A DNA stretch of 64,000 nucleotides, taken from Roseobacter sp. GTDB taxonomy: Bacteria; Pseudomonadota; Alphaproteobacteria; Rhodobacterales; Rhodobacteraceae. The position numbers were made by a program, and so were the translations under genes. Below the pieces are notes generated by a model, which worked only from the letters and a program-made list of their open reading frames with translations, was not told the DNA's origin and ran no database searches. Location of the stretch: assembly GCA_002731875.1 (NCBI GenBank), contig PCCY01000028.1:1-64000 (forward strand), given 5' to 3'. Of this stretch, positions 4,060 through 40,137 are shown piece by piece. How positions within the stretch are numbered: position 1 is the stretch's first letter; the number at the start of each line of letters is the position of its first letter.

Positions 4060-5139
4060 ATGGGCGGTGTTATTCCCAACCAACACATCAACGATATGAT
4101 CAGTGCCGGTCAGATCATCGGCACCCCCGAGGTCGATCCGGCCCAGGTCCAACCCGCCAGTCTCGACCTGCGGCTTGGAACCGTCGCGTATCGCGTGCGG
4201 GCCTCGTTTCTGACCGGGCACGGCGCAAAGGTCGCTGATCGTCTAACCGAATTCGAGATGCACCGCGTTGACCTGACCAGCGGTGCGGTGTTGGAAAAGG
4301 GATGCGTCTATGTCGTACCCTTGATGGAGAGCCTTGCCCTGCCAGATGATATATCGGCGGTCGCCAATGCCAAAAGCTCGACCGGGCGGCTGGACCTGCT
4401 GACCCGTACCATCACAGACGGCGGTACGGAATTTGACCGTATCGCGCATGGCTATACCGGGCCGCTTTACGCCGAAATCTGTCCCCGGTCTTTTTCGGTG
4501 CTCGTACGTCCCGGCATGCGGTTGAACCAGATTCGCTTTTCCTCCGGCAATGCGGCGCTGGATGATGCGGCGCTGCGTGCCCTGCACACCGAAACGCCGC
4601 TTGTCGATGGCGACGCCGTGATCGATGACGGGTTGGGCTTTTCGGTCGACTTGCGGTTGCCTGGCACGACCTTGGTCGGGTACCGGGCCAAACCCCATAC
4701 CGGCGTGATTGACCTTGACAACATCGGCCACTATGCGCCCGCAGACTTTTGGGAAGAAGTTCACAGCGACAACGGGCAGATCATCCTCGACCCAGGAGCG
4801 TTTTACATCCTGGTAAGCCGCGAGGCCGTCACCATACCACCAGAATTCGCAGCCGAGATGGCCCCATATCTTGCCATGGTCGGAGAGTTCCGCGTCCACT
4901 ACGCAGGCTTTTTTGACCCGGGTTTCGGCCATGCCACAGCCGGCGGCGCAGGGTCGCGCGGTGTTCTGGAAGTGCGCTGTCACGAAGCCCCGTTCGTGCT
5001 TGAACATGGCCAGATCGTTGGACGCCTGATTTACGAGAAAATGTCCGAAATACCCACGCAGCTGTACGGCGCGGGAATTGCTTCGAACTATCAGGGGCAA
5101 GGTCTCAAGCTAAGCAAGCATTTCCTCGCGCCGGCCTGA
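4060..5139 (+). CDS. dcd: 2'-deoxycytidine 5'-triphosphate deaminase (long form)
   Basis: Two dUTPase/Dcd-like halves (VQPASLDLRLG, NAKSSTGRLDLLTR, LVSREAVTIPPEFAAEM); start moved to ATG 4060 because the ORF-track start lies in the terminator. Confidence 0.85.
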   Translation: MGGVIPNQHINDMISAGQIIGTPEVDPAQVQPASLDLRLGTVAYRVRASFLTGHGAKVADRLTEFEMHRVDLTSGAVLEKGCVYVVPLMESLALPDDISAVANAKSSTGRLDLLTRTITDGGTEFDRIAHGYTGPLYAEICPRSFSVLVRPGMRLNQIRFSSGNAALDDAALRALHTETPLVDGDAVIDDGLGFSVDLRLPGTTLVGYRAKPHTGVIDLDNIGHYAPADFWEEVHSDNGQIILDPGAFYILVSREAVTIPPEFAAEMAPYLAMVGEFRVHYAGFFDPGFGHATAGGAGSRGVLEVRCHEAPFVLEHGQIVGRLIYEKMSEIPTQLYGAGIASNYQGQGLKLSKHFLAPA

Positions 5140-5240
5140 CCCACGCGGTTCGGTCTGTTCAATTGCAAGGCCTGACGCAACCCAAACGGACTGCCGCAGG
5201 CACCGCCCGCCCGCGCAGCCGCAGACAGTAGAGACAAACC

Positions 5241-5483
5241 CTAAAACTTGTTGAGTCGGCGCATGTTCTTCATCATGTCACGCGCACGCTTGCCTTGGTC
5301 GCGTCCCATCTTGTCACGGCTTGCGTTTTCTGCGGCACTGATATCAGGACCCCCCGTGTTCCGACTACCATCGGATTTCCGCCCCTTGCCGAGCTTGGAC
5401 GCTTGGTCGAAACCTATCGAGACACCCTTGTTGATCAGCCGCCCCATAACCTGACGCATAATCATATTGATAATCTGGTTCAT
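5241..5483 (-). CDS. Small conserved hypothetical protein (80 aa)
   Basis: Plausible standalone ORF, basic C-terminus; no family recognised. Confidence 0.55.
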   Translation of the reverse strand: MNQIINMIMRQVMGRLINKGVSIGFDQASKLGKGRKSDGSRNTGGPDISAAENASRDKMGRDQGKRARDMMKNMRRLNKF

Positions 5484-5564
5484 CGTTTATCCCCGGTTGC
5501 AACGTCAAAATCACTGTCAGTGCTTAATATAGCATTCAATACGGCGTTTTTCAGGCCCTCGTCG

Positions 5565-6224
5565 TTAATCCTCGAACAATTCGCTTTGACCCTCTGTTGG
5601 CTCGGGTTCATCTTCGTCTTTGATGTCAAATGTGGGCATTGCCCCGAATGCCGGGCGATTCTCCAGCAATCCTGCCGATCGCAATTCTTTCAAACCTGGC
5701 AGGTCGCGTGGGCTTTCCAGACCAAAATGCGCCAGAAACTCTTGTGTGACAACGAAAGTCACCGGCCGCCCCGGGGTCATCTTGCGGCGTCCAAACCGGA
5801 TCCAGTCAAGTTCAAGCAGTTGGTCCAGCGTGCCGCGCGACACGGACACACCACGAATTTCTTCTATTTCTGCCCGCGTGGTCGGTTGGTGATAGGCGAT
5901 GATAGCAAGGGTTTCTATTGCCGCCCGCGACAGCTTGCGCACCTCGACAGTCTCTTTCTGCATGAGGTACCCTAAGTCGGCAGCCGTGCGCATCGCATAG
6001 GCATCTCCGACTTTCACCACCTCGACACCCCGCCCTTCGTACCGTCGGCGCAGATGGATCATCGCCTCGCCTGCATCACAACCATGCGGCATGCGTTGTT
6101 CAATATCGCGCAGGGTCACCGGATCGGCGGTCGCAAACAGAATGGCTTCCAGCATGCGTTCTTGTTCAGCCATGGGCGGCGGATCAAACAGGCTTTCCTC
6201 TTGGTCGTCATAGGCTTCAGCCAC
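5565..6224 (-). CDS. scpB: Segregation and condensation protein B
   Basis: EAILFATADPVTLRDIEQRMP, IIAYHQPTTRAEIEEIRGVS; adjacent to scpA. Confidence 0.95.
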   Translation of the reverse strand: MAEAYDDQEESLFDPPPMAEQERMLEAILFATADPVTLRDIEQRMPHGCDAGEAMIHLRRRYEGRGVEVVKVGDAYAMRTAADLGYLMQKETVEVRKLSRAAIETLAIIAYHQPTTRAEIEEIRGVSVSRGTLDQLLELDWIRFGRRKMTPGRPVTFVVTQEFLAHFGLESPRDLPGLKELRSAGLLENRPAFGAMPTFDIKDEDEPEPTEGQSELFED

Positions 6225-7011
6225 GCTGCTTCTCCCTTTTGCGCAACTCGATGGGCGCGAACAGCTCGGTTTGTCTGATCTCTATGTGCCCCTCCTTGGC
6301 CAGCTCCAGCGACGCCGCGAACGTAGAAGCGGTGGCGGAACGCAACTGCACTGGGTCAACCGACCACCCCTCGGGCAGATAACTCGTCAGGTCCGACCAA
6401 TCGCCCGCATACCCGATCAGGCCGCGCATACGATCAAGGGCTTGTTCCATCGTGAACACCTTGTCACGGTCCATGACGAAGGGCCTGAAGTCATCCCGGG
6501 TGCGGATGCGGGCATAGCCTTGCATGAGGTCCAGCAACGTCGCGGTATAGGTGATACGGCGGGTCCGCTGCACCTCGTCAGTCTGCCCACGGGCAAAAAA
6601 GTCGCGTCCCAGCTGGTCGCGCGCCATCAGCCGCGCCGCCGCGTCCCGCATGGCCTGCAATCGTTCAAGCTGAAACGCCAGGTGCGCTGCCAGTTCCTCG
6701 CCGGTCGGTCCCTCTTCATCGGGGTCAGGGGGTAGCAAAAGACGGGATTTCAAAAACGCCAACCAAGCCGCCATCACCAGATAGTCAGCAGCAAGTTCAA
6801 GCCGTAATGCCTTTGCTTTTTCGACAAACAGAAGATATTGCCGTGCCAGTTGCAGAACCGATATCCTGCGCAAGTCGACCTTTTGGGTGCGGCTTAGCGT
6901 CAGCAACAGATCCAAAGGTCCTTCGAACCCATCCACGTCGACGATCAGCGCTTCGGCAGCCAGCCTTTCGGCCACGGTACATTGATCTTCCTCGAATAGT
7001 GTTTCAGCCAT
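6217..7011 (-). CDS. scpA: Segregation and condensation protein A
   Basis: VDGFEGPLDLLLTLSRTQKVDLRRISV; start at MAETLFEED chosen. Confidence 0.94.
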   Translation of the reverse strand: MAETLFEEDQCTVAERLAAEALIVDVDGFEGPLDLLLTLSRTQKVDLRRISVLQLARQYLLFVEKAKALRLELAADYLVMAAWLAFLKSRLLLPPDPDEEGPTGEELAAHLAFQLERLQAMRDAAARLMARDQLGRDFFARGQTDEVQRTRRITYTATLLDLMQGYARIRTRDDFRPFVMDRDKVFTMEQALDRMRGLIGYAGDWSDLTSYLPEGWSVDPVQLRSATASTFAASLELAKEGHIEIRQTELFAPIELRKREKQRG

Positions 7012-8011
7012 GCACATCCTCGCCGACAAGCCTGGTCAGCCTTGCAGTCAGGGCGGGAATGTCAATATCATCAGGGACCACACGCGCAGCCAATGCACGT
7101 TCGGCCCGTGTTTGTGCGGCTTGCGTCATCTCACCCGCAGCGTCGGCGACCAGAGCGCGGTCTTTCAACGATGCATTGCAATACAACACCACATCGCATC
7201 CGGCCGCCAATGCATCGCGGGTGATATCGTCAATGCGCCCCTTTAGCGCCTGCATTGATATATCATCAGTCATGATCAGATTGTCGAACCCGATTTCATC
7301 GCGAATAACCTGCATCATCACCGGCGATAACGTTGCAGGACGTTTATCAAGAGCCTCGTACACAAGATGCGCGGTCATCGCCATCGGAAGGTCGTTCAAC
7401 GCCTTGAAAGGTGCGAAATCAGTGCCGATCAGATCGTCACGACCGGCACTGACCTGGGGCAGATCAAAATGGCTGTCCATTGTAGCACGGCCATGACCAG
7501 GCATATGCTTGACGACCGGCAAAACACCACCGGCCAACATCCCGTCTGCCGCCGCTCTTCCCAGTTTGGTGACCTTTTCCGGGTCCGTACCATAGCAACG
7601 GTTGCGCAAAAACTCGTGGGTTTGCGGACCCGCCACATCGACCATCGGCGCGCAGTTACTGTCGATACCTAGATCATGCAGCTCGTGTGCGATAAGACGA
7701 TAACGCAGATTCATCGCTTCGACGGAATTTTCACCAGCGGCCTTCACGAAATCCAGAGGTGGCGACCAGTCACGCCAAAACGGCCGGCGCAGTCGTTGCA
7801 CCCGTCCGCCTTCCTGATCGACCGTTATCACCGCATCATGGCCAGCGGCGTCGCGCAGTTCTGCACACAGCGCGCGAACCTGTTCAGGTGTGTCCACATT
7901 GCGGCTGAACAAGATGAACCCAAAAGGCTTAACTTCGCGAAAAAGCGCTTTCTCTTGCGCCGTCAATCGTAACCCCGACGCATCCAGTATCGTCGCCCCG
8001 AAGCGTGTCAC
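7004..8011 (-). CDS. nagZ: Beta-N-acetylhexosaminidase
   Basis: GFILFSRNVDTPEQ, DQEGGRVQR, KHMPGHG, MTDDISMQA; GTG start overlapping the upstream TGA (GTGA). Confidence 0.92.
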   Translation of the reverse strand: MTRFGATILDASGLRLTAQEKALFREVKPFGFILFSRNVDTPEQVRALCAELRDAAGHDAVITVDQEGGRVQRLRRPFWRDWSPPLDFVKAAGENSVEAMNLRYRLIAHELHDLGIDSNCAPMVDVAGPQTHEFLRNRCYGTDPEKVTKLGRAAADGMLAGGVLPVVKHMPGHGRATMDSHFDLPQVSAGRDDLIGTDFAPFKALNDLPMAMTAHLVYEALDKRPATLSPVMMQVIRDEIGFDNLIMTDDISMQALKGRIDDITRDALAAGCDVVLYCNASLKDRALVADAAGEMTQAAQTRAERALAARVVPDDIDIPALTARLTRLVGEDVHG

Positions 8012-9036
8012 CGGGTGACGACAGGGATGCAATCGGCGTTTTCCGCAACCAAGGCAGAACAAAAGCGTCGTGCATCCGCGATATCTTCGAAGCCATGTGC
8101 GCGCAGGCGATAGAAGGTGCGACCACCGCTGCTTGCTTCTTGGATCACTCGCGATTTGCCATCCAGATAGGCCCCGAACCGGCCATTCAGCGTATCCCAC
8201 TGCGCCCGCGCGGTCTGTGGGGTATCAAAAGCACCCAACTGCACCAGACGCGTCCCTTTTGGCAAACTATCGGCGGCAAGCTCTGTCACGGTTGCCGGCG
8301 TCGCGATCATCGGAGTGTCAGCAGGTTGAAACGATGCACGCGTCACCAGTTCGGAAGTTGCGGGGCGACGTTTAGGCCGCAGCGAACTGTGAACGCCCGG
8401 CTCTCCACCCATCGCGAGCGCAACCGCCTGCGACACCGCCAGCTCAAGCGGGTCCATATCCAGTGTTTCGCTTTCGGCAACCGGTTCGATGGTGCCTTCA
8501 CCTTCGTCTAACGGGTCAACCCCGTCGGCTATCGGGTCAACGCCGACGGGCAAAGACGCCGTGACGTCGCTAATATTCCCCGTTTGCAAAGCCGCCACCT
8601 GGATAGGTTCCGGCTTGTTCAGTGCCGGCACCTGTGGCTCAGATGCCACCATTGCGACGGCAATGGGCTGGTCTTCGTCCTCAAGATCCAGCGGCTTGGG
8701 GGCTAATATCACTTGCTCCGCAAACTGGCTGGCGGTTCCTTCCGATGCCACGGCATTGACGGATAACCCCTGATTGTCGGCAAGCTGACCGCCCGGATTC
8801 TCGGGACGAACGCGCATGTCACCGGCTGCCGCGCGAACGACGGGTATGCCCGTGACATCGCGCATCAGCAGCTTATAGCCCCACACCGCGATGCCTATGA
8901 TCAACGCGACCGACATGGCAGCTCCGGCTATATTTGCCAATTTTGACAAAGGCTTAGCCTGCACATTAAGTGTCGCGCTAGCATCGGATTCGAAAGAATA
9001 CCCCCCACCGTGGGACGGGGACGTGTAATATGCCAT
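8008..9036 (-). CDS. SPOR domain-containing protein
   Basis: N-terminal TM segment and C-terminal SPOR-like domain (VQLGAFDTPQTARAQWDTL...FYRLRAHGF). Confidence 0.85.
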   Translation of the reverse strand: MAYYTSPSHGGGYSFESDASATLNVQAKPLSKLANIAGAAMSVALIIGIAVWGYKLLMRDVTGIPVVRAAAGDMRVRPENPGGQLADNQGLSVNAVASEGTASQFAEQVILAPKPLDLEDEDQPIAVAMVASEPQVPALNKPEPIQVAALQTGNISDVTASLPVGVDPIADGVDPLDEGEGTIEPVAESETLDMDPLELAVSQAVALAMGGEPGVHSSLRPKRRPATSELVTRASFQPADTPMIATPATVTELAADSLPKGTRLVQLGAFDTPQTARAQWDTLNGRFGAYLDGKSRVIQEASSGGRTFYRLRAHGFEDIADARRFCSALVAENADCIPVVTR

Positions 9037-9110
9037 ATCTGCCTCACTGCCCACGACTAGTTCAATTGACGCAGGTCTATTTTTTAAAATGCCCGACCAG
9101 CCGGTGTGCG

Positions 9111-10853
9111 TTAACGCATCTCTTCCGCTGGTTTGACCCCCAGAATACCAAGACCTGACGCAATTACAATCGCTGTGGCTTGGGCAAGCGCGATTTTTGA
9201 CTGCGAAGTAGCAGGATCATCTTGCAGGAAACGCAACGAAGGCACGTCATTGCCTCGGTTCCATAGGCCATGGAAATCTCCGGCAAGTTCATAGAGATAA
9301 AACGCCACCCGGTGCGGTTCATTGCTTCGTGCGGCGGTTTCCACCAGACGCGGCCATTCGGCCAGTTTGGCGGCCAGCTTGAGTTCGCTCTCGTGATCCA
9401 GCCTGCCCAGATCTGCGGCTTTCAATGCACCCATATCGACCGATACACCAGCTTCGGCGGCCTTGCGCAGCACAGAGTTGACCCGCGCATGCGCATACTG
9501 AACGTAAAACACCGGGTTCTCACGGGATTGCTCCAACACTTTGGCAAAGTCGAAATCCAGCATCGCGTCATTCTTGCGTGTCAGCATGACAAAGCGCGTT
9601 ACATCGGGGCCCACCTGTTCGACGACGTCGCGCAGGGTCACGAATGTCCCTGCCCGCTTGGACATCTTGAATTCCTTGCCATCCTTGAACAGCTTGACCA
9701 ACTGCGTCAGCTTGATATCCAGCGGCACGGTACCGTCCGATAACGCGGAAACCGCAGCTTTCATCCGTTTGACATAGCCACCGTGATCTGCCCCGAACAC
9801 GTCGATCAGCATGTCGAACCCACGCTGCACCTTGTCAAAGTGGTAAGCGATGTCCGGCGCGAAGTATGTCCACCCGCCGTCGGATTTCATCACAGGCCGG
9901 TCCACGTCATCTCCATGAGCCGTAGATCTGAACAACGTCTGCTCGCGTGGCTCCCAGTCTTCGGGCTTCTTGCCCTTGGGGGGTTCAAGTACGCCCTCAT
10001 AGATCAGCCCCTTGGACTTGAGGTCCTCGATCGCGGCTTCGATCCGGCCCGAGCCATACAGCGACTTTTCCGAATAAAACACGTCCATCTCAACCCCAAG
10101 CGACGCAAGGTCGCCCCGGATCAACTTCATCATCTCGTCGGTCGAGAAATTGCGAACATCCTCAAGCCAGACAGCCTCGTCCTGGTCAAGATAGGCGTCG
10201 CCGACCTTGTCCTTCAGTGCGACGCCGACCTCGATCAGATAGTCACCGGGATAGGTTCCGTCGGGAAACGCCACCTCTTGTCCGTATGCCTCCAGATAGC
10301 GCAGGTACACAGAGCGCGCCAAAACATCGACCTGCGCACCGCCATCGTTGATGTAATACTCACGCGTCACGTCAAAGCCGGCAAAATCCAGCAAGGACGC
10401 CAGCGCATCGCCGAACACCGCACCACGGGTGTGCCCCACATGCAGCGGCCCCGTGGGATTGGCCGAAACATATTCGACGTTGACCCGCTTGCCCTGCCCC
10501 AGATCGCCACGACCGAAATCGGTGCCCTGTGCCAGAACGGCACCCACGACGCGCTGCCAGACATCCGCGCTGAGCCGCAGGTTCAAGAACCCCGGCCCCG
10601 CCACATCCGCCGCCGTGATACGCGGATCCTCGGCCAGTTTTCCCGCCAGCTTTTCCGCAATATCACGCGGCTTCATGCCAGCGGGTTTTGCCAGTACCAT
10701 CGCCGCGTTGGTCGCCATATCACCGTGCGACGCATCGCGCGGTGGCTCTACCGTGATGGCGTCAAAGTTCAGCGCCTCGGGCAGAAACCCGTCGGCAACC
10801 AGCGTCTCGAGGGTGGACAGCACAAGGCTGCGGATATCGGCAAATAGGTTCAT
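9111..10853 (-). CDS. argS: Arginine--tRNA ligase
   Basis: [41 protein letters not shown]. Confidence 0.97.
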
Positions 10854-10916
10854 AACGGAGTTCCTTCGACTTGGCCCCGTGTATCACCTGAATATCCACC
10901 CTTAATCAAGGGCAGT

Positions 10917-12059
10917 TCAGCTGTTAACAATCAGCCGCTCATGCTCTTGCAACGCAAAGCGATCGGTCATTCCCGAAATATAGTCGCTGACAATCCGCGC
11001 CATTGCGATGTTCCCGTCCGCTTCTTCAACATCCTTGCGCCACTGTTTCGGCAGTTGCTCGGGATGCGCGCAAAAATAGGGGAACAGATCCTCGACCACC
11101 CGCGTTACCTGCTGCCGCATGATCACCACGGATTCAGCGCGGTACATCCGGTCGAACAGAAACGCGCGTATCATCTTGAGATCCTCAAAGACCGGGTCTG
11201 AAAACTGGATCAACGTGCGCCCGGCCATCCGGATGTCGGTGGCCGTTTCGGGTTGCATTTCCCTCAGCCGTGTCCGCGCGACATTGATCACATCCTCAAC
11301 CAGCACACCAAAGAACCGGCGCAATGCCTCGTGACGGCGACGATAGTAATTCAAGCCCGGGTATAATCGGTCGACCTCGACAAAGTTGCCTCGCAGGATC
11401 GGCAATTCGGCCAGCTCATCCGTCGAAAACAGCTCCGCGCGCAGCCCATCATGCAAGTCATGGTGATTATACGCGACATCATCCGCGATGGCCGCCACTT
11501 GGGCTTCCGCGCTGGCAAAAGTCCCCAACTCAAGATCATGCTGGCGCTCATACGCGGCCAGGGCCCAGGGTAGGTCACCGGTCACAGGGCCATTGTGCTT
11601 GGCCAACCCCTCCAAAGTTTCCCATGTCAGGTTCAACCCGTCAAATTCGGCATAGTGACGCTCCAGATGGGTGACGATCCGGATCGCCTGCGCGTTGTGA
11701 TCAAACCCGCCATAGGGTGCCATCAACGCCTGCAAGGCATCTTCACCGGTATGACCAAAAGGAGGATGTCCCAAATCATGCGCCAGCGCGACTGCTTCGG
11801 TCAGCTCCGCATTCAACCCCAACGCACCGGAAATGGTGCGCGCCACCTGCGCGACCTCTATCGAATGGGTCAGCCGCGTGCGGTAATAATCGCCCTCATG
11901 TTCAATGAAAACCTGGGTCTTGTGCTTCAGCCGCCGAAAGGCGCTGGCGTGAATGATCCGGTCACGGTCCCGCTGAAAGCATGACCGAAATGTACTTTCC
12001 TCCTCTGGTCGCAACCGTCCCCGGGTCGCAGCCGGATCAGAGGCAAAAGGTGCGCGCAT
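10917..12059 (-). CDS. dgt: Deoxyguanosinetriphosphate triphosphohydrolase-like (HD domain)
   Basis: FQRDRDRIIHASAFRRLKHKTQVF, ALAHDLGHPPFGHTGE. Confidence 0.92.
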   Translation of the reverse strand: MRAPFASDPAATRGRLRPEEESTFRSCFQRDRDRIIHASAFRRLKHKTQVFIEHEGDYYRTRLTHSIEVAQVARTISGALGLNAELTEAVALAHDLGHPPFGHTGEDALQALMAPYGGFDHNAQAIRIVTHLERHYAEFDGLNLTWETLEGLAKHNGPVTGDLPWALAAYERQHDLELGTFASAEAQVAAIADDVAYNHHDLHDGLRAELFSTDELAELPILRGNFVEVDRLYPGLNYYRRRHEALRRFFGVLVEDVINVARTRLREMQPETATDIRMAGRTLIQFSDPVFEDLKMIRAFLFDRMYRAESVVIMRQQVTRVVEDLFPYFCAHPEQLPKQWRKDVEEADGNIAMARIVSDYISGMTDRFALQEHERLIVNS

Positions 12060-12143
12060 ATACGGTGGTCCTTGTAGCCTGTCCTGCGACTTTCTATATT
12101 GTACCCAAGACCAGATGGAAACCGATAGCACCGGAGCCTGATT

Positions 12144-12467
12144 ATGAACCTGCCCCCCAAAGTTACGTCCCGGGCTTTCGACCGGTTGGCCGAAATCGGT
12201 GCAGCGGCCGACGGCAAGGCCCTGCGCATCGCGGTAGAAGGCGGAGGCTGCTCAGGGTTTCAATACGACATCGCGCTTGACGCCCCGAAAGAAGACGACC
12301 TTGTCCTCGAAGGCTGCGGTCAGCGGGTCGTGGTCGACAGCATTTCTTTACCGTTTCTGGCCAATGCGACAATCGACTTCTCCGAAGAACTCATCGGCGC
12401 ACGGTTCATCATCGAAAACCCCAACGCCACAAGCGCTTGCGGTTGCGGCACATCTTTCTCGATGTAA
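12144..12467 (+). CDS. erpA: Iron-sulfur cluster insertion protein, HesB/IscA/ErpA family
   Basis: VEGGGCSGFQY ... NPNATSACGCGTSFSM with conserved Cys residues. Confidence 0.9.
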   Translation: MNLPPKVTSRAFDRLAEIGAAADGKALRIAVEGGGCSGFQYDIALDAPKEDDLVLEGCGQRVVVDSISLPFLANATIDFSEELIGARFIIENPNATSACGCGTSFSM

Positions 12468-12574
12468 GCCCACACGCGTTTCCCGATGCAAGCCCACACG
12501 CGTTTCTCGATGCAAGCCCACACGCGTTTCTCGATGCAAGCCCACACGTGTTTCTCGATGTAAGCCCACACGCG
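12455..12574 (+). repeat. 24-bp tandem repeat, 5 units (consensus TTTCTCGATGYAAGCCCACACGCG)
   Basis: Units at 12455, 12479, 12503, 12527, 12551; units 1 and 5 identical; array starts inside the erpA 3' end. Confidence 0.97.
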
Positions 12575-12576
12575 TT

Positions 12577-12631
12577 TTCATTTTGCCCCGCAAACTCCCG
12601 CCGGAGGCTGGCCTCATTGATAAATGAGGCC
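12577..12631 (-). repeat. Dispersed intergenic element copy 1 (hairpin + GGAGTTTnnnGGGCAAAATGAA)
   Basis: Perfect 9-bp stem GGCCTCATT/AATGAGGCC plus box shared with copy at 21702-21750. Confidence 0.7.
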
Positions 12632-13687
12632 ATTTCCGTTGTCTGCAGCGCGCGAAAACCCTTCAAAGAATGCGTCGAACCGATAGGTCGATCGCTCCGC
12701 CGCTTCCAGGATCGCTTGCCCGTCCTCGGGCATCGTCGCAATCAGGCGCGCCCGCATCTTCCCCCAATCGGCGGACCTGCCCCGACCATAATCAAACAAA
12801 GCCTGTGACAGCCCGCGCAGCGCGCCGTTTCCGGCCGCAGGCGCGTGTATAGCGACCTTGCCGGCTGGTATCGCCCTTTCAAATGCCTTGCGTCCGGTCA
12901 TCTGCGCCAACCAGCCGGACACCAGATAGGTGTGATACCCATCCGCGCTGCCCGCCATGCCGATATGCCCCATGCGACAGTCGTTGTGGGCCTGGCACAC
13001 GAAGCTTTCCCAGACCTTGTCCGGGACCTCGCCGGCCAGACGCTTTGCCGCACAAATTTCCCCCAGCAAATCGGCATCCTGGTCCAGGAAGGCCAGAAGT
13101 CCTGCATTGTCCAGACTGATATGCGCGGCATCGCTCAGACGGGGGTCTTGCTGGCCATAGTCGGCCAGGTAAAACACGATATGTGCCAATTCATACGCGG
13201 CTTTCTTGTTCGGAAGGGCAAATGTCATCGACCTTGAAATGAAGTTCTCAAGCCGGTCCTGCAACGACGGGTCGCGCCGCACACAGATGCGGCGCGCCAA
13301 CAGGCGTTCAGCTTCGGCGCGTTGCAGATCCGAAAGCTCGGCCCGAGCAAACTGGTGCCGGTCAACCCAGTGGCATAATATCGCCCCCTGGTCGCCCCTT
13401 AGGCCCAGATCCTCAAGATCAAGACAGAGCGAAAGGAAAAATCTGTAATACTGCGGAAAGAATGAAATTTTCGCCGCTAAATCCTGATAAATCTCCTCAT
13501 AGGGGGCTATAGCGTCCCGAGGTTTATCCGCGTCCATGTTTGCCAATATACCCAGCCACTCGGCGTTCTCCTTCAACCAGAATACATCATCCTTGGCGCG
13601 GCGCCCGTGGGCAAACAGGGTGCTCAGACTGGCAAAATCTATTGCCTGATCCTGCCTGCGTGACTTCAGATCAATAACATTCGTCAT
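12614..13687 (-). CDS. Uncharacterised 357-aa protein, possibly functionally linked to the upstream 63-aa peptide
   Basis: Intact ORF with SD-like AGGGAG; motifs KAAYELAHIVFYLADYG and DGYHTYLVSGW; no family assigned. Confidence 0.85.
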   Translation of the reverse strand: MTNVIDLKSRRQDQAIDFASLSTLFAHGRRAKDDVFWLKENAEWLGILANMDADKPRDAIAPYEEIYQDLAAKISFFPQYYRFFLSLCLDLEDLGLRGDQGAILCHWVDRHQFARAELSDLQRAEAERLLARRICVRRDPSLQDRLENFISRSMTFALPNKKAAYELAHIVFYLADYGQQDPRLSDAAHISLDNAGLLAFLDQDADLLGEICAAKRLAGEVPDKVWESFVCQAHNDCRMGHIGMAGSADGYHTYLVSGWLAQMTGRKAFERAIPAGKVAIHAPAAGNGALRGLSQALFDYGRGRSADWGKMRARLIATMPEDGQAILEAAERSTYRFDAFFEGFSRAADNGNGLIYQ

Positions 13688-13707
13688 GGGCTCCCTTTCA
13701 ACTGGCC

Positions 13708-13729
13708 CCCTGTGCCCGAAGGCGCAGGG
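13708..13729 (-). promoter_or_regulatory. Intergenic hairpin with cUUCGg tetraloop upstream of the 357-aa gene
   Basis: CCCTGCGCC-TTCG-GGCACAGGG on the minus strand (one C-A mismatch). Confidence 0.6.
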
Positions 13730-13783
13730 TAAGCTTTTTGGGCATCGTGTCAGTCATTTACCGGACAATGCCCGCCCTTCACC

Positions 13784-13975
13784 CTATACGGTGGACAAGG
13801 TCACCGGCTGCGAGCCCGTGGTGAAAAGCTCGGTCCCGCCACCCGATGCCATCGACGTGTTGCACGCAATCGAACCGGTGGTAAAAAGCTCCGTGTTTTC
13901 GCCGCCATGCAGCGCATCAAGTGTCTTTTGATCGGTCGAAACCGAGGTATCTTCCAGATATGCAAGCTTGTTCAT
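13784..13975 (-). CDS. 63-aa peptide with double-glycine-like leader and duplicated ELFTTGS core (putative RiPP-like precursor)
   Basis: MNKLAYLEDTSVSTDQKTLDALHGG|ENTELFTTGSIACNTSMASGGGTELFTTGSQPVTLSTV; SD-like AAGGAT upstream of ATG. Confidence 0.75.
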   Translation of the reverse strand: MNKLAYLEDTSVSTDQKTLDALHGGENTELFTTGSIACNTSMASGGGTELFTTGSQPVTLSTV

Positions 13976-14329
13976 TTCTTATCCTTCGCAGTTGGGGTTG
14001 CAGTCGCGATGACAATTTTAAATTGCGTCTACATCAATGTTTGCCCGTTAAAATTGCTCACTCAACGTGATGATGAATACAATTTTAGACAGATAAACTT
14101 ATCCACATTGAGGTCGCCGAATACGGAGCTGATCGGCAACGTTGGCTGTTGTTGTACACAGGTCAGAAAAAGTTTTTTCCACACACGCGCTGATTGCGCC
14201 ATCAGCTAACCCACTGGATTTGGTTAAAAAGGAATCACCGACTCCCACCGCTCCGGGACGAATCTGCTGCGTTGCCCTTGCCCCAAACATCACTTTGCGC
14301 GATAGCTGCGGTGCAATCAGGGGGCTGCC

Positions 14330-15112
14330 ATGAAAATCGCTACGTTCAACATCAACGGTATCAAGGCCCGTATCGCCGCGCTGCCCGAATGGCTGGACGA
14401 AGCACAGCCCGACGTCGCCATCCTGCAAGAAATCAAGTCCGTCGACGAAGGCTTCCCTCGGGAATTGTTCGAGGATCGCGGCTATAATGTTGAAACCCAC
14501 GGGCAGAAATCATTCAATGGCGTCGCGATCCTGTCAAAGCTCCCGCTCGAGGATGTGGTGCGCGGCCTGGATGGGGATGAAACCGATGAACAGGCCCGAT
14601 ATATCGAGGCCACCGTCGTGGGTGACAAGGCGTCGGTCCGCTTGTGTGGATTGTACCTGCCCAATGGCAACCCGGCACCGGGGCCAAAGTTCGACTATAA
14701 ATTAGCCTGGATTAAGCGTCTGGAACAGCGCGCACGTGCCTTGTTAGCAGACGAAACGCCGTTCCTGATGACCGGAGATTTCAACATCATCCCACAAGCA
14801 GAGGATGCCGCGTCGCCTGCGGCGTGGCGTGACGATGCCCTGTTCCGGTTTGAAACGCGCGAAGCGTGGCGCAGATTGCTTGCGCTTGGCCTGACCGACG
14901 CATTTCGGGCGCGCACCCAAGGCCCCGGACATTACAGCTTCTGGGATTATCAAGCCGGTGCCTGGAATCGCAACAACGGCATCAGGATCGACCATTTTCT
15001 GCTAAGCCCTGCGGTTGCGGACATGCTAAAAGACTGTCAGATCGACAAGGAAATTCGGGCGCGGGAAAAACCGTCGGATCATGTGCCGGTCTGGGTCGAC
15101 TTGGATTTCTAG
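14330..15112 (+). CDS. xth: Exodeoxyribonuclease III
   Basis: MKIATFNINGIKARIAALPEWL, LQEIKS, GDFNIIP, SDHVPVWVDL. Confidence 0.94.
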   Translation: MKIATFNINGIKARIAALPEWLDEAQPDVAILQEIKSVDEGFPRELFEDRGYNVETHGQKSFNGVAILSKLPLEDVVRGLDGDETDEQARYIEATVVGDKASVRLCGLYLPNGNPAPGPKFDYKLAWIKRLEQRARALLADETPFLMTGDFNIIPQAEDAASPAAWRDDALFRFETREAWRRLLALGLTDAFRARTQGPGHYSFWDYQAGAWNRNNGIRIDHFLLSPAVADMLKDCQIDKEIRAREKPSDHVPVWVDLDF

Positions 15113-15144
15113 AACCCCCGACACACCCGTCCCGGAACCGTTGC

Positions 15145-15729
15145 TCAGGCTTGAAGCTCGGCGTCCCAGTACAGGAAATCCATCCAGCTTTCGTGCAGAT
15201 GGTTGGGCGGGAACCTGCGCCCCATGTTGCGTAGTTCTTCCGCTTGGGGTTGGCGGGGTGGTTTGCGCAGATGAAACCCGGTGTGATGCAGCGCCTTCGA
15301 GCCCTTCTTGAGGTTGCACGGGCTGCACGCGGCGACCACGTTTTGCCAGCTTGTGACACCGCCCGCCGCACGCGGTACCACGTGATCAAAGGTCAGATCG
15401 CCGCGTGCCCCGCAGTATTGGCAGCGAAATTCGTCGCGCAGAAATAAATTAAAGCGCGTGAAGGCCACGCGCTTTTGAGGTTTGACATAATCTTTGAGAA
15501 CAACGACCGACGGGATTTTGATCTGCATCGACGGGCTGTGAACGTAGTCATCGTATTCGGCCACGATATCAACCCGGTCAAGCCATTTGGCCTTGATCGC
15601 TTCCTGCCAGGGCCAAAGCGACAGCGGATAATAGGACAATGGCCTGTAATCCGCATTCAGCACCAGGGCCGGTCTGTGTTTCAGCCCAGCCGGGCTTCGG
15701 GTGAATTCGGTTCTAAAATCGCCGTCCAT
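15145..15729 (-). CDS. HNH endonuclease family protein
   Basis: CQYCGARGDLTFDHVVPRAAGGVTSWQNVVAACSPCNLKKGSK HNH motif; start MDGDF chosen. Confidence 0.92.
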   Translation of the reverse strand: MDGDFRTEFTRSPAGLKHRPALVLNADYRPLSYYPLSLWPWQEAIKAKWLDRVDIVAEYDDYVHSPSMQIKIPSVVVLKDYVKPQKRVAFTRFNLFLRDEFRCQYCGARGDLTFDHVVPRAAGGVTSWQNVVAACSPCNLKKGSKALHHTGFHLRKPPRQPQAEELRNMGRRFPPNHLHESWMDFLYWDAELQA

Positions 15730-15952
15730 CGTATTGATAAGCCCCTTGCCGTTCCGCGTCCGGTCCGGCAGGACAGCCCCACCGATGGGACTGACTATAT
15801 CTCGTGGTTTGCGTCTGACAAGCCGCAAATGGATACAAGATGTCGCAGTACTGGGGACCGGGACATAACGCGGTGGTGAGGTAACACCTCACCCGTTTGA
15901 GGTACCCGCCTCGGGGGCGCAAACTTGCCCCCAATCGCCCTGTACGATGTCG

Positions 15953-16618
15953 TTACAAACTTAGTTTATCGCGCATGAACGCTAGTGCAACGCTTAGCCC
16001 GTCGGGCGCGATACCGTGGCCGGTACCCTTCATAATATGAGCAAAAACGTCGGTCCATCCGGCTTCCTGCAAAGCTTCGGCAGCTTCGGGCAGTGATTGC
16101 GGCGGTACCACGTCATCCACATCACCGTGAACCAGCAACACCGGAGGCCGCGAGATAGCATCGTCCTTCAGGCTTTCGGGTGATAACAGCCGCCCCGAAA
16201 ACGCGACGATGCCCGCCACCGCATCTTCGCGACGCGGTGCCACATGCAGCGCCATCATCGTGCCTTGGGAAAAACCGAACAGGACAACCTGTTCGGGCAA
16301 CAGATCCTCATCGACCATAAGGGCATCAAGAAACGCGTTCAGGTCCTGCGTGGCTTGCACCATCCCGCGTTCGGCTTCCTCTTCCGATGAATTATCGATC
16401 CACGGGATCGGAAACCACTGGAATCCCATCGGGGCACCGGCGCACGCTTCGGGGGCATCGGGTGCCACAAACAGCGTGTCAGGCAGGTGCTCTCCCAACG
16501 GGTCGGCCAACCCCAGCAGGTCTGCGCCGTTGGCACCATACCCATGCAAGAAGACCACCGCCGACCGCGTTTCACCCGACACTGGTTCCCGGCGCTCTGC
16601 GTTTAAAATTCGTGTCAT
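15953..16618 (-). CDS. Alpha/beta hydrolase (phospholipase/carboxylesterase family)
   Basis: VVFLHGYGANGADL, FGFSQGTMMAL, VHGDVDDVVP, GTGHGI. Confidence 0.9.
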   Translation of the reverse strand: MTRILNAERREPVSGETRSAVVFLHGYGANGADLLGLADPLGEHLPDTLFVAPDAPEACAGAPMGFQWFPIPWIDNSSEEEAERGMVQATQDLNAFLDALMVDEDLLPEQVVLFGFSQGTMMALHVAPRREDAVAGIVAFSGRLLSPESLKDDAISRPPVLLVHGDVDDVVPPQSLPEAAEALQEAGWTDVFAHIMKGTGHGIAPDGLSVALAFMRDKLSL

Positions 16619-17247
16619 GATATGCCTTCCCGTTGTTTTGCAATCCGGTAGTACGAAAACAATGTGCGGGCTGCAACCGATCGCCAAGGCGACCAGCTCT
16701 CAGCCATCGCCGCCAACTGCTTCGGCTTGGGTCGCTCTGGCAGATCAAACAGGATTCGTGATGCCTCCTGCAAGGCCAAATCGCCCTCGGCGAAAACGTC
16801 GGCGCGACCCAGTGAGAACATCGCGTAAATCTGTGCTGTCCATAACCCCACGCCCGGTACGGCCGTCAGCGTCTTGATCACATCTGCATTCGGGGCGTGG
16901 CGCAGGGCGGCATAGTCGATCCGTGCGTCTGCAAGAGCCAAGGCGTAGCGGATTTTCTGGCGGCTCAGACCGGCGCTGCGCAACCCCTCCTCGCCCGCAG
17001 CCGTGATCGCCGCTTCGTCGGTCAGACCTGCCGCGTCCATCTTGGTGCGCATCGCATTGGCCGATGCCACCGATACCTGTTGGCCGATAATCGCCCCGAT
17101 CAATGCGTCAAATCCGTCGTTGCGCAGGCGCAGTGGCAGCGGCCCGGTGGCTTCAAGGGCCGCGGCAAACTGCGTGGACCGCGCCGCCAGCCACGCCGCC
17201 CCCTCAGCGACGTCAGCATCACAGGTGATGATACGCCCGGTGGTCAT
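16615..17247 (-). CDS. DNA-3-methyladenine glycosylase II (HhH-GPD superfamily)
   Basis: ALIGAIIGQQVSVASANAMRTK, LTAVPGVGLWTAQIYAMFSLGRADVF. Confidence 0.9.
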   Translation of the reverse strand: MTTGRIITCDADVAEGAAWLAARSTQFAAALEATGPLPLRLRNDGFDALIGAIIGQQVSVASANAMRTKMDAAGLTDEAAITAAGEEGLRSAGLSRQKIRYALALADARIDYAALRHAPNADVIKTLTAVPGVGLWTAQIYAMFSLGRADVFAEGDLALQEASRILFDLPERPKPKQLAAMAESWSPWRSVAARTLFSYYRIAKQREGIS

Positions 17248-17981
17248 AGGGCATTGAGCCATGCCACTGCGGCCCGCGCGGTGGCAAGCTGCCGTGCCCC
17301 TTCCGGCGGTGGAGGGCGATCAATCACGATTGCCCGCACTCCCAGTTCCAGCGCTGCATCCAGCTTGGGCCGGCTTGGTTCACCGCCTACGTTGCGGCAC
17401 ACCAATGTATCAACGTCGAGCCGACTGAACAATGCCGCCTCCTGTGCCCGGGTGTACGGGGGACCCCCATAAACGGCTTCGGCGAACCCGGGCAGCGGGT
17501 TGCGGGTACCGGCGCGCGCCTGACGCAGGAACAGCTTGCGCCCCGTAAAGGGTGCATATTCGTCGATGGTCCCGCGCCCGGTGGCTGCGAACACCCGCGC
17601 CCCGATGGGGATCATGGCTGCGGCCTGTGCAACCGAAACGGCGCGTTCGGCAGGCGGCTTGATTGTCCAGGCGGGTCGCAGCAAACGTGCATAGGGCAGA
17701 CCTGACCACCGCGCCGCATCCTCGGCGATGAGCGAGACATCCGCATCAAAACCGTGCCCGGCATCGCAGATCGCCGTAATACCGTTGTCAGCAAGATAGC
17801 GCTGCATCTGCGCAGAACCGTCGGGGGTCCAAATCTGCGAAGGGACGCTCAGGGGGCCAAAGCTGCGCTCGACCCGGCGCAAGATCGCCTGCGCGGATAG
17901 GTTGGAACCTGACAGCGCAGAGGCAACATCATGCGCCTCGGCGCTGCCGGCAATCAGAAGAATTCTTGGCTTGCGTGTCAT
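17244..17981 (-). CDS. cobK: Cobalt-precorrin-6A reductase
   Basis: ILLIAGSAEAHDVASALSG, DAGHGFDADVS, GRKLFLR; start MTRKPRIL. Confidence 0.85.
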   Translation of the reverse strand: MTRKPRILLIAGSAEAHDVASALSGSNLSAQAILRRVERSFGPLSVPSQIWTPDGSAQMQRYLADNGITAICDAGHGFDADVSLIAEDAARWSGLPYARLLRPAWTIKPPAERAVSVAQAAAMIPIGARVFAATGRGTIDEYAPFTGRKLFLRQARAGTRNPLPGFAEAVYGGPPYTRAQEAALFSRLDVDTLVCRNVGGEPSRPKLDAALELGVRAIVIDRPPPPEGARQLATARAAVAWLNAL

Positions 17982-18056
17982 GGCGCGATGATCGTTTAGC
18001 TGTCTTGCGGGCGCAAGGGGCTTGCAGCGCCTCAAGCCGCGGTCTACGCATTCGCA

Positions 18057-19283
18057 ATGACAGCGATTGATGATACCCGCGCCAAGCGAAACGTCACCGT
18101 TCTGGTGACCGCACAGGCATTTCTTGGCAGCCAAATGCCGATGTACTTTGTCATCGGAGGATTGGCAGGCCAACAGCTTTCTCCCAATGCCTGCCTTGCA
18201 ACCTTGCCTATTTCGATGATCGTGTTCGGGTCAATGACCACCGCGCCGTGGTTGTCCACGGTGATGCAGCGGCTTGGGCGGCGCTCGGGGTTTGTCACCG
18301 GTGCTGCCGGGGGTATGACGGGGGCCGCGATCTGCGCCTATGCATTGACCGTCCAAAGCTTTGGGTTCTTTCTGCTGGGAAGCTATCTTTTGGGCATCTA
18401 TATGTCTTCACAAGGTTTCTTCCGTTTCGCGGCAACCGATACGGCGTCGGATGAATTCAGACCCAAGGCCATTTCGTATGTTATGGCAGGAGGGCTGATC
18501 TCGGCGATCATCGGCCCGCAACTCGTGGGCATGTTGACCGGGGTCAATGGGGCCGCCACGGTGATGCGGTTCTTTCCGGTTTACGTGGCGGCGATCGTAT
18601 TGAATGCAATCGGCATGGCACTGTTCGCCTTTCTCGACATTCCCAAGCCACCTGTTCCCAGCGTTGATGCGCCCAAGGGCCGCACACGCACGCAGCTATT
18701 GACCACCCCGCGCATCGCTGTCGCGGTGATCTGCGGCATGGTGTCCTATGCGCTGATGAACCTGGTGATGACGTCGACGCCCCTGGCCGTCGTCGGTTCT
18801 GGATTTGACATTGTCGACGCCTCGCACGTGGTGACAGGTCACGTACTGGCGATGTATGCGCCATCCTTTTTTACCGGCCATCTCATTGCGCGGTTCGGCG
18901 TTGAAAAGATCGTCGGTCTCGGCCTCGCCATTCTAGCGTTGGCAGGAGTGGTCGCGCTTCAGGGTGTCGACCTGAACAACTTCTATATCGCGCTGATCCT
19001 GCTTGGCGTAGGCTGGAATTTCGGTTTTATCGGTGCAACGTCGATGCTGGCTGGAGCGCATGCCCCGCACGAGCGTGGCCGCATGCAGGGCCTGAACGAT
19101 CTGCTGGTGTTTGGCGGCGTCACCTTTGCATCGCTGGCTAGCGGTGGGCTCATGAACTGTTCAGGCGGCGATCCAATCCAGGGCTGGTCCGCCGTTAACA
19201 TGGCGATGATACCATTTCTGGTGTTGGCCGGCGGGGCACTGCTCTGGCTCATGTTTCGCCGCCCCACACCCTCTCACGCGTGA
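18057..19283 (+). CDS. MFS transporter
   Basis: Around 12 hydrophobic segments, MFS-like layout. Confidence 0.88.
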   Translation: MTAIDDTRAKRNVTVLVTAQAFLGSQMPMYFVIGGLAGQQLSPNACLATLPISMIVFGSMTTAPWLSTVMQRLGRRSGFVTGAAGGMTGAAICAYALTVQSFGFFLLGSYLLGIYMSSQGFFRFAATDTASDEFRPKAISYVMAGGLISAIIGPQLVGMLTGVNGAATVMRFFPVYVAAIVLNAIGMALFAFLDIPKPPVPSVDAPKGRTRTQLLTTPRIAVAVICGMVSYALMNLVMTSTPLAVVGSGFDIVDASHVVTGHVLAMYAPSFFTGHLIARFGVEKIVGLGLAILALAGVVALQGVDLNNFYIALILLGVGWNFGFIGATSMLAGAHAPHERGRMQGLNDLLVFGGVTFASLASGGLMNCSGGDPIQGWSAVNMAMIPFLVLAGGALLWLMFRRPTPSHA

Positions 19284-19290
19284 CCGCGTC

Positions 19291-20061
19291 CTACCAGCGG
19301 CCGGAAACCGCCCGCCATGACAGCACAAAGCGGTCCAGCGGCGGCAACTGTGCCTCTCTTACGCGCGCGGGTCGCGCGATCGCAGCCCGTAAAACTCTGG
19401 CGCTGGCCGCGACGGAGTACATTGCAGGTCTTGCGGCTTTGGAAACCTTGCCACGACTGCGACGGGCGCGATCCAACCGTTTCAGCGCCCGATCGGCCAA
19501 CCTTGCGACACCCGCTTCGGTACCGTCAAGCAAGGGAACCCGCCCAAGCTCCACCAACCGCGGTATCGCAAGCAGCCAGGCGGCCACGCCTGCGCCATAA
19601 GCCGCATCGCGTACCGTAGGTTCATCCGCTTGGCCCAAACGCCGGGCTGCAACCCACATCAGGTTCCCGGCGGTCTGGTCTATATACGCGTCGAAATGTG
19701 CGTCATCTTCAAACGGATCACGGTAAATATCCCAGCGTCGCGCAGCAACCAACCCATCAAGCAACCCCGCATCGTCAGCGGTGATCGCCGCAGCAAGCGG
19801 AGTGGCGACCTCGTGGCGGCGTACCGTTTCGCCGTTGGCTATTTCCTCGCAGACATCGCGCCACCACTGCAAACGCATTTCAGCGATCATCGCTTCCTGC
19901 GTGACCCAGGGGGCACGTGCCACTTCTATGTTGAACGCATAAAGCGGAAACAACACGCGCCGCGCATTCAACGGGGCCGCCATGGTGGCACGGAATCGCA
20001 AAGAGTCCGCCCGCTCAACGAGCCCAGCACAGGCAACCAGATCGGCGTCAAATTCCATCAA
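19291..20061 (-). CDS. Squalene/phytoene synthase family protein
   Basis: LRFRATMAAPLNARRVLFPLYAFNIEVARAP, QTAGNLMWVAARRLG. Confidence 0.82.
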   Translation of the reverse strand: MMEFDADLVACAGLVERADSLRFRATMAAPLNARRVLFPLYAFNIEVARAPWVTQEAMIAEMRLQWWRDVCEEIANGETVRRHEVATPLAAAITADDAGLLDGLVAARRWDIYRDPFEDDAHFDAYIDQTAGNLMWVAARRLGQADEPTVRDAAYGAGVAAWLLAIPRLVELGRVPLLDGTEAGVARLADRALKRLDRARRSRGKVSKAARPAMYSVAASARVLRAAIARPARVREAQLPPLDRFVLSWRAVSGRW

Positions 20062-20070
20062 ATCAACTCT

Positions 20071-21687
20071 CTATCCGTTGCTGTCGCGGATCAGTTTCCA
20101 GCGGATCGCATCCAGCAGTGCCTCGAACGAGGCATCCACTATGTTCGCCGACACGCCCACCGTCGACCAGCGTCGGCCCTGCCCGTCCTCGCTGTCGATG
20201 ATGACACGGGTCACCGCCTCGGTCCCGCCTTGGGTGATGCGGACCTTGAAATCCACCAGATGCATGTCCTCCAGTAGCGCCGAATATTGCCCGAGATCCT
20301 TGACCAGCGCTTTGGAAAGCGCATTCACCGGACCGCGGTCACAGCCTTCGGCATCCATGCTCTCACTGACCGACAGACGCTTTTCACCATCTACTTTCAC
20401 GACGACAACGGCTTCCGAGAGGCTCACCATCTGGTTGTACTTGTTCTTGCGCCGTTCAACAGTGACGCGGTAGCGCTTTACCTCGAACAAGGCGGGCATC
20501 TGCCCCAGAACCTTGCGCGCCAGCAGCTCAAAGCTCGCCTGGGCGGTATCATAGGCATAGCCCTCGGCCTCGCGGGATTTGACCTCATCCAGAATCCGCG
20601 CCAACGCCGGGTCGCCTTTGGTAATCTTCAGCCCTGCACTTTCCAGACGTCGCCGCAGGTTTGACTGGCCAGCCTGGTTCGACATCGGAATGATGCGCGC
20701 ATTGCCCACCAGTGACGGCTCGATATGCTCATAGGTCGATGGATCCTTGAGGATCGCACTGGCGTGCAGCCCCGCTTTATGCGCAAAAGCCGACGACCCG
20801 ACAAAGGCCGCCTGCTTCATCGGGACACGGTTGAGAATTTCATCCAGCGACCGGCTGATCTGCGTGAGGTTGACCAACCCGTCCGGCGTGACCCCGGTCT
20901 TGAAACAGCTGGCATAGGGTTCTTTCAGCAGCAAAATCGGTATCAGCGTCGTCAGATTGGCATTTCCGCAGCGCTCGCCCAGACCATTCAGGGTGCCCTG
21001 GATCTGCCGCGCGCCGGCGTCAATGGCGGCCAGCGAACAGGCGACCGCGTTTTCGGTGTCATTATGCGTATGAATGCCCAGATGCGCGCCGGGGATTCCC
21101 GCCGCGATAACCTCTGCGGTGATGCGCCCGACCTCGGCAGGCATGGTGCCTCCGTTGGTGTCGCATAGCACGATCCAGCGCGCGCCCGCGTCATGAGCCG
21201 CCTGGATCGCGCTCAAGGCGTAATCAGGATTGGCGCGGTAGCCATCAAAGAAATGCTCCGCATCAAAAAGCGCCTCGCGCCCTTGCGCAACAACGTGCCT
21301 GACAGACCGCGCGATATTGTCGGTGTTCTCGTCCAGCGTGATCCCCAGGGCCGCCGACACGTGGAAATCATGGGTCTTGCCGACAAGGCACACGGCCTTC
21401 GTGCCCGCATTCATCACCGCGGCAAGCACATCGTCGTTTTCAGCCGAAATACCGTTGCGTTTGGTCATGCCAAACGCGGTCATGGTGGCACGCGTCGCAG
21501 GTGCTGTCTCAAAAAACGCGGAATCCGTCGGATTCGCCCCCGGCCAACCGCCTTCGATATAATCAACGCCAAGCGTGTCGAGCGCATTGGCGATGCTGAT
21601 CTTCTCGGTGGTCGAAAACTGCACCCCTTGGGTCTGCTGCCCGTCACGCAAGGTGGTGTCGTAGATATAGAGGCGCTCTTCAGTCAC
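20071..21687 (-). CDS. cimA: (R)-citramalate synthase
   Basis: LYIYDTTLRDGQQTQGVQFS, GIHTHNDTENAVACSLAAIDAGARQIQGTLNGLGERCGN; 538 aa. Confidence 0.92.
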   Translation of the reverse strand: MTEERLYIYDTTLRDGQQTQGVQFSTTEKISIANALDTLGVDYIEGGWPGANPTDSAFFETAPATRATMTAFGMTKRNGISAENDDVLAAVMNAGTKAVCLVGKTHDFHVSAALGITLDENTDNIARSVRHVVAQGREALFDAEHFFDGYRANPDYALSAIQAAHDAGARWIVLCDTNGGTMPAEVGRITAEVIAAGIPGAHLGIHTHNDTENAVACSLAAIDAGARQIQGTLNGLGERCGNANLTTLIPILLLKEPYASCFKTGVTPDGLVNLTQISRSLDEILNRVPMKQAAFVGSSAFAHKAGLHASAILKDPSTYEHIEPSLVGNARIIPMSNQAGQSNLRRRLESAGLKITKGDPALARILDEVKSREAEGYAYDTAQASFELLARKVLGQMPALFEVKRYRVTVERRKNKYNQMVSLSEAVVVVKVDGEKRLSVSESMDAEGCDRGPVNALSKALVKDLGQYSALLEDMHLVDFKVRITQGGTEAVTRVIIDSEDGQGRRWSTVGVSANIVDASFEALLDAIRWKLIRDSNG

Positions 21688-21701
21688 GTCCTACCCCCAA
21701 C

Positions 21702-21750
21702 TTCATTTTGCCCAATAAACTCCGGGGAGCGTGAGGGGCTGGCCCCTCAC
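21702..21750 (-). repeat. Dispersed intergenic element copy 2 (hairpin + GGAGTTTATTGGGCAAAATGAAG)
   Basis: GTGAGGGG/CCCCTCAC hairpin plus shared box with 12577-12631. Confidence 0.7.
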
Positions 21751-21792
21751 TCCGGCAATCGCGCACTTGCGCCGCCCCCGCCTGAGCCCACG

Positions 21793-23217: not shown

Positions 23218-23447
23218 GTGGCGCGTCCTTACGCAAGGATGGCGCGGGCATGGCACAGAAATCTTGGGAAGAAAACGTTGTGAACAGGCCCGCCGGAAGG
23301 TCTTAGCAGGAAATACAGCAAATAATGAGTGTGTTCGTGTTCATACTGCTTGCGTAGCCCGAGCATGGCCCGAGGGTCAAGCCTGATTGACAAATCACCC
23401 TTGCTCTGCGCCCCTGCGTCCTTCATCTGGAATAACGGAGGCAGGCC

Positions 23448-24620: not shown

Positions 24621-24623
24621 GAA

Positions 24624-24652
24624 AAGGCCAGGTGCTAACAGCTCCTGGCCTT
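24624..24652. terminator. Terminator hairpin between convergent genes
   Basis: AAGGCCAGG/CCTGGCCTT stem with inner GCT/AGC; TTTTCC follows on the minus strand. Confidence 0.75.
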
Positions 24653-24765
24653 GGCCCTTTCGGGTGCATCACACTGTCCGATCACGTGACAACGTATCAT
24701 CATGTGACTGTCTGGCTCGGAAATGTCGTTGAAGACATCCCCGAGCTTGCAATGCTACATGCGCT

Positions 24766-40074: not shown

Positions 40075-40137
40075 ACTGCGGCCTCTTTAGCTAGAAGCGA
40101 TCTGATTGAAAAGCCCTAACTTCACGAAAATCGCAGA

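Follow-up and report, generated by a model that had tools for sequence, protein, structure and literature searches.

Closest described systems

Cyanobactin- and orbitide-type RiPP precursors and the yeast alpha-factor precursor carry several near-identical short cores between recognition or spacer segments. Among enzymes, the DUF6895 family (Pfam ID PF21836) has a member with a reported role in lasso-peptide epimerization (Shi et al., ACS Catal 2026, 16:1757, as cited in PMC13352647). MslH, the epimerase of the lasso peptide MS-271, combines acid/base catalysis with two His/Asp pairs, a calcineurin-like fold, and Ca(II) (PMC10406935).

The locus analyzed here, in a 64,000-nucleotide stretch of Roseobacter sp. 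DNA (the window), pairs a small repeat peptide with a protein of the DUF6902 family (Pfam ID PF21843). Unlike the cyanobactin and orbitide types, it has no recognized YcaO, ATP-grasp, or subtilisin-like gene, and it differs from these and from alpha-factor in its five-residue cores and its unrelated putative maturase. DUF6902 is related in sequence to the family of the reported lasso epimerase, although it is far diverged and has a Pfam entry of its own. In contrast to the lasso system, it is accompanied by a multicore precursor, with no lasso cyclase or B protein recognized nearby. The His/Asp pairs of MslH are comparable in principle to H169 and H252 of DUF6902 with D206 and E210 (PMC10406935), but no sequence relation to MslH was detected and the predicted fold is nearly all-alpha rather than calcineurin-like. 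Searches of open-licence PMC articles found no paper dealing with DUF6902, the core motif strings, or a Roseobacter RiPP of this kind. The cassette looks like an undescribed type of ribosomal modified peptide, possibly with D-amino acids.

The gene pair in the window

The repeat peptide (63 aa, two units) is encoded on the minus strand at positions 13784 to 13975, and the 357-aa DUF6902 protein, a proposed maturase, on the same strand at positions 12614 to 13687. An earlier note on this DNA, made from the letters alone, had described both open reading frames as codirectional and the heptapeptide ELFTTGS as occurring twice in the peptide, 20 aa apart, and was correct on each point. Unit 1, GENTEL-FTTGS, occupies positions 13871 to 13903 (core FTTGS at 13871 to 13885), and unit 2, GGGTEL-FTTGS, positions 13811 to 13843 (core at 13811 to 13825), both on the minus strand. 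Both fit the family unit G-x5-F-x4, with its spacing of 20 to 21 aa. Against L031, the nearest relative, dN is 0.022 and dS 0.595 for the peptide (dN/dS of about 0.04), and the corresponding values for the DUF6902 protein, which is 88% identical, are 0.065 and 0.749. Because dN is far below dS, both are constrained genes; synonymous change dominates in the peptide, whereas the earlier note would have taken the lack of such drift as evidence against its proposal.

The 96-nucleotide intercistronic gap (positions 13688 to 13783, minus strand) contains a GC-rich stem-loop at positions 13708 to 13729, with a folding z of −1.7. Over 102 distinct intercistronic gaps the mean folding z is −1.0, and the signal is strong in several Sulfitobacter-type relatives; support for the stem-loop is weak overall, and it may tune expression. 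At the other end of the DUF6902 gene, a palindromic stem (positions 12609 to 12632, no strand assigned) is a possible terminator, with a site count not above the shuffled expectation. A 24-bp tandem repeat in 5.1 copies, TTTCTCGATGCAAGCCCACACGCG, extends over positions 12455 to 12577, from the end of erpA toward the DUF6902 gene.

Positions 4486 to 22486 of the window have an inverted, 100% identical 18-kb second copy on another contig of the same assembly (C35, positions 9000 to 27000). Positions 40000 to 42000, unlike these locus-bearing 18 kb, have no second copy in the assembly. The C35 copy of DUF6902 was taken to reflect either redundancy in the assembly or a large duplication of very recent date, and it was treated as nonindependent.

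The DUF6902 protein

The 357-aa protein, in which the earlier note recognized no family, in fact gives a full-length match to DUF6902 (residues 1 to 347, E value of 9e-127, 423 bits against a cut-off of 27). It does not belong to an unrelated housekeeping family, the outcome that would have spoken against the proposed pairing. The DUF6895 profile is matched more weakly (E value of 1.5e-16, 61.1 bits against a cut-off of 23.8); this score above the cut-off, together with the Y-x3-H, D-x3-E, and Y-H motifs held in common with aligned DUF6895 proteins, places the protein in the DUF6895 superfamily. Profile comparisons with NCBIfam and PHROGs gave nothing significant, and a sequence search for solved structures gave nothing meaningful. 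The AlphaFold2 model is nearly all-alpha (pLDDT of 91.2, pTM of 0.89). Foldseek found no significant relative of the model in the PDB (best E value, 0.31); its weak matches include TPR-like repeat proteins.

Six residues are invariant or nearly so in the DUF6902 alignment and are present also in the aligned DUF6895 proteins: Y165 and H169 of the Y-x3-H motif (His169 codon at positions 13181 to 13183), D206 and E210 of the D-x3-E motif (codons at 13058 to 13072), and the Y251-H252 pair (codons at 12932 to 12937), all encoded on the minus strand. The DUF6895 sequences in this alignment come from Alphaproteobacteria, other Pseudomonadota, Bacilli, and Streptomycetaceae, and one DUF6902 row, L105, ends at an in-frame stop. 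Cys212 is invariant in DUF6902 and is not conserved in DUF6895.

The stop in L105, a metagenome-assembled genome, lies near codon 43 (KEVA*LLNILE) of an open reading frame starting at position 4386. With the rest of the frame intact, it may be a sequencing error or early decay, and L105 was excluded from both the structural alignment and the tree. A search of plasmids found no DUF6902, and a different query of plasmids found DUF6895 relatives.

Co-occurrence and genomic context

A codirectional repeat-peptide open reading frame lies immediately upstream of DUF6902 in 110 of 110 loci (median gap, 65 nucleotides), a set composed of the best 80 of 302 relatives, which is biased toward close ones, and 30 loci from a broader genome search, also ranked by score. 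The two frames are thus conserved together, as the earlier note had required of its proposal. DUF6902 is found in 38 of 121 sampled Rhodobacteraceae genomes and in 4 of 299 genomes across the phylum, all four from Rhodobacteraceae; at the genus level, about one-third of the marine Rhodobacteraceae sampled have the peptide and enzyme genes at a single fixed site in the chromosome. A precursor search matches 33 of the 121 genomes, every one of them DUF6902 positive (Fisher P value of 1e-24), and gave no match in the 83 DUF6902-negative genomes. Inspection of the five unmatched positives reveals a peptide of at least two units in four: the window genome, G042 (two copies of YIAGL), G073 (10 copies of FTTSM), and G101 (two copies of MMCCS). 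No repeat peptide was found on inspection of the fifth, G039, so that the peptide is present in 37 of 38 DUF6902-positive genomes. Conservation of a short precursor gene together with an adjacent candidate modifying enzyme is the arrangement expected of a RiPP locus.

In most loci, the cassette is inserted between exoIII and erpA-dgt-argS. The erpA neighborhoods of 16 DUF6902-negative relatives, 13 of which have exoIII near erpA, contain no match to DUF6902, the repeat frame, or EamA; the absence of both genes there indicates all-or-none occurrence of the cassette. In 59 of 110 loci, the gene directly downstream of DUF6902 encodes an EamA-type transporter (assigned from a PF00892 match of one representative). 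Export, which the earlier note expected to be unconventional or encoded elsewhere, thus need not be so in about half of the relatives, although the window, like its Sulfitobacter relatives, has no EamA gene beside DUF6902.

The conserved neighbors identified, namely, ExoIII, ErpA, Dgt, ArgS, and the EamA transporter, include no enzyme of an established RiPP class, no recognized dedicated protease, and no recognized C39 transporter beside the cassette. Lasso B (protease/RRE) and C (cyclase) proteins are not recognized among the conserved neighbor families in up to 6 kb on either side where contigs allowed. The cassette appears to be a widespread and previously undescribed peptide system of ecologically important marine bacteria, outside the established RiPP enzyme classes.

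Architecture of the repeat precursor

The precursor unit has the form G-[DE]-x-x-[EQ]-[ML]-F-x-x-x-x and recurs nearly always every 20 or 21 aa, with 1 to 20 copies counted per precursor in the 110 DUF6902 loci. Many precursors are tiny (63 to 100 aa, with two to four units). The last counted core forms the C terminus in 80 of 111 precursors; the window peptide differs in having 8 residues beyond it. A known Pfam family for the precursor was considered and rejected, as none of five precursors searched reached the cut-off of any family.

The letters LHGG in the window peptide recall the double-glycine leaders of C39-exported peptides, and the earlier note had accordingly proposed such a leader, with Leu at −7 and −4 and Gly at −2 and −1. 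Alignment of 109 first units rules this out. The segment LHG leads into unit 1, whose first residue is the second G, and a G opens every unit of the precursors, unlike the situation in double-glycine peptides. Position −2 is Gly in only 11 of 109 relatives (D, E, T, S, A, or C in the others), position −7 is Leu in only 5 of 109, and −4 alone among the leader positions is usually hydrophobic. Because the second G belongs to the unit and position −2 varies, the segment is not a double-glycine leader.

The variant precursor of L176 (genome G101), about 350 to 60 nucleotides upstream of a DUF6902 start at position 4011, contains the units GDHVDQMMCCS and GDQVQAMMCCS; its MMCCS core replaces the near-invariant Phe and gains two Cys residues. 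Contigs seem to be broken inside the repeat precursor in L014, L021, and L177 (G027 and G054), which implies that the gene will often be split or missed in draft assemblies.

Evolution of the cores

Cores within a precursor are far more alike than cores drawn at random. The mean diversity at positions F+1 to F+4 is 0.109, against 0.500 when units, called without any filter on core residues, are dealt randomly among precursors (500 shuffles; minimum, 0.466). Between precursors, core types include FSSGS, FTSGS, FTTSC, FTTSM, FTSWS, FVSWS, FCSAS, FISGS, FTSGL, and FPSWS. On a quick maximum-likelihood tree of the enzyme (LG+G4), the five-residue core is estimated to have changed at least 44 times and the F itself once. 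Position F and F+2, a small polar residue, are the most constant; F+1 takes many different residues (S, T, C, V, P, I, and M), and a few lineages have another residue in place of F (YIAGL in G042 and MMCCS in G101).

Codon inspection shows that core copies within one precursor use differing synonymous codons. Synonymous divergence among copies is similar in cores (pS of 0.56) and linkers (0.63), which rules out recent DNA duplication as the sole cause of identical cores. In contrast, pN/pS is 0.20 (CI, 0.17 to 0.24) at core positions F+1 to F+4 and 0.79 (CI, 0.74 to 0.83) at linker positions +3 to +8. With a low core pN/pS and a pS like that of the linkers, the cores appear to be kept alike mainly by selection at the amino acid level, and selection on the core is distinct from that on the linkers, as expected for a RiPP.

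Between the closely related L085 and L076, F+1 is Ser in all units of one and Thr in all units of the other, and in the last unit the remaining four core codons are identical. The simplest reading is that each lineage makes a single uniform product. Some precursors nevertheless mix two cores (FTTGS and FTTSC in L036; FSTSS and FSSGS in L104). This is an unusual mode of repeat evolution, in which copies are held identical by selection, the linkers drift, and the whole set is switched between relatives.

A genus without the peptide

A natural experiment is offered by one genus, in which four genomes (L181 to L184) encode an intact DUF6902-like open reading frame of 371 to 385 aa; in G039, this frame occupies the usual chromosomal site. 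No repeat peptide was found upstream of it in any of the four (0 of 4). In these proteins Y165, H169, D206, E210, Y251, and H252 are all replaced and W37, E117, G178, and R29 are kept, although the four represent one lineage and one event, and such diverged sequences align less certainly than the others. The parallel loss of residues and peptide suggests that the six residues act on the peptide.

Proposed function and alternatives

Taken as a whole, the cassette probably encodes a RiPP-like precursor with several cores and a maturase dedicated to it, for which a peptide epimerase is the likeliest identity. The repeat peptide would very probably be the precursor and DUF6902 its maturase; whether DUF6902 epimerizes a core residue is a tentative assignment, with the chances falling somewhat short of even. 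The earlier proposal of a precursor with a modification or partner protein is strongly supported by the co-conservation in all 110 loci, the matched presence and absence, and the purifying selection, and further by the relationship to the family of the reported DUF6895 epimerase and the loss of invariant residues where the peptide is missing. These data point strongly to the peptide as the likely substrate of DUF6902, moderately to epimerization as its likeliest chemistry, and weakly to the proteolysis, export, and biological role suggested below.

In the proposed mechanism, the precursor would begin with a short N-terminal leader and continue as a series of tandem units. In each unit a recognition segment, G[DE]xx[EQ][ML], would precede a core of five residues, usually of the form F-x-[ST]-x-x (FTTGS in the window). 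The all-alpha DUF6902 would bind every unit and modify its core by means of Y165/H169, D206/E210, and Y251/H252. The likeliest chemistry would be L-to-D epimerization at the C-alpha atom of a core residue through acid/base catalysis, in view of the DUF6895 relationship, the two invariant His residues, and the two carboxylates. Such backbone chemistry fits the variety of residues accepted at F+1 (S, T, C, V, P, I, or M). Since DUF6902 and DUF6895 are distant (E value of 1e-16), the chemistry may have changed between them. General proteases might then free many identical short peptides, which the downstream EamA-type transporter, where present, might export.

The same residues could serve a different chemistry: a metal (e.g., Fe) could be held in a 2-His/carboxylate site made up of H169, H252, D206, and E210, and the core Phe or the Ser, Thr, or Cys would be oxidized or cross-linked, in agreement with F and F+2 (a small polar residue) being the most constant core positions. 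This version of a precursor-maturase pair is somewhat unlikely, given that DUF6895, the sole characterized relative family, is reported as an epimerase in the citation in PMC13352647, and that the wide variation of F+1 and the replacement of F in G042 and G101 are easier to reconcile with chemistry at the backbone than with a reaction specific to Phe.

That DUF6902 is a peptidase or transpeptidase, cutting the precursor into short peptides with no other modification, is an improbable reading. The uniform cores, the many precursors that end exactly at the last core, as if at a processing site, and the lack of another recognized protease in the conserved neighborhood would suit it, but DUF6902 matches no peptidase family or fold and is related to what the same citation gives as an epimerase family, and its invariant Cys212 is not conserved in DUF6895. 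It is highly improbable that the repeat protein is itself a polymer with a structural, adhesive, or ligand-binding role and that DUF6902 is its helical chaperone or partner, as the low-complexity repeats and the weak TPR-like Foldseek matches could suggest, because many precursors are so small, selection is focused on the five-residue core while linkers drift, and catalytic-looking residues, whose loss is not expected of a scaffold, are lost in the peptide-free genus.

Within the precursor-maturase reading, a more specific idea, which we regard as unlikely, is that the cassette makes a lineage-specific, multicopy short peptide signal, a bacterial counterpart of pheromone precursors, with a core D-residue set by an all-alpha, two-histidine epimerase. 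With the cassette at a fixed chromosomal site in many roseobacters, coordinated replacement of all cores between close relatives would create different signal types. At the level of the protein family, these comparisons provide DUF6902, a Pfam domain of unknown function, with a likely substrate and candidate residues for its active site.

Peptide genes adjoining DUF6895

Small peptide genes adjoin DUF6895 genes as well. Small open reading frames precede them in L127, L128, L130, L148, L149, L150, L152, and L153, other phyla included. By eye, most of these frames have a segment resembling "L..SGI.N...T..QLL," and several have a later aromatic stretch, such as GPWF, GPWY, or NYVYKG. If DUF6902 is indeed an epimerase, the superfamily, which is present also in Bacilli, Streptomyces, and other Pseudomonadota, might be a broad source of D-amino-acid peptides. 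The DUF6895-type genes of L148, L149, L150, L152, and L153 are carried on plasmids (hosts: Pseudalkalibacillus, Streptomyces, Bacillus thuringiensis, and Kitasatospora), where a small gene annotated as a hypothetical peptide precedes each of them. Two of these loci, L152 and L153, also have a type I polyketide synthase gene near the DUF6895-type gene.
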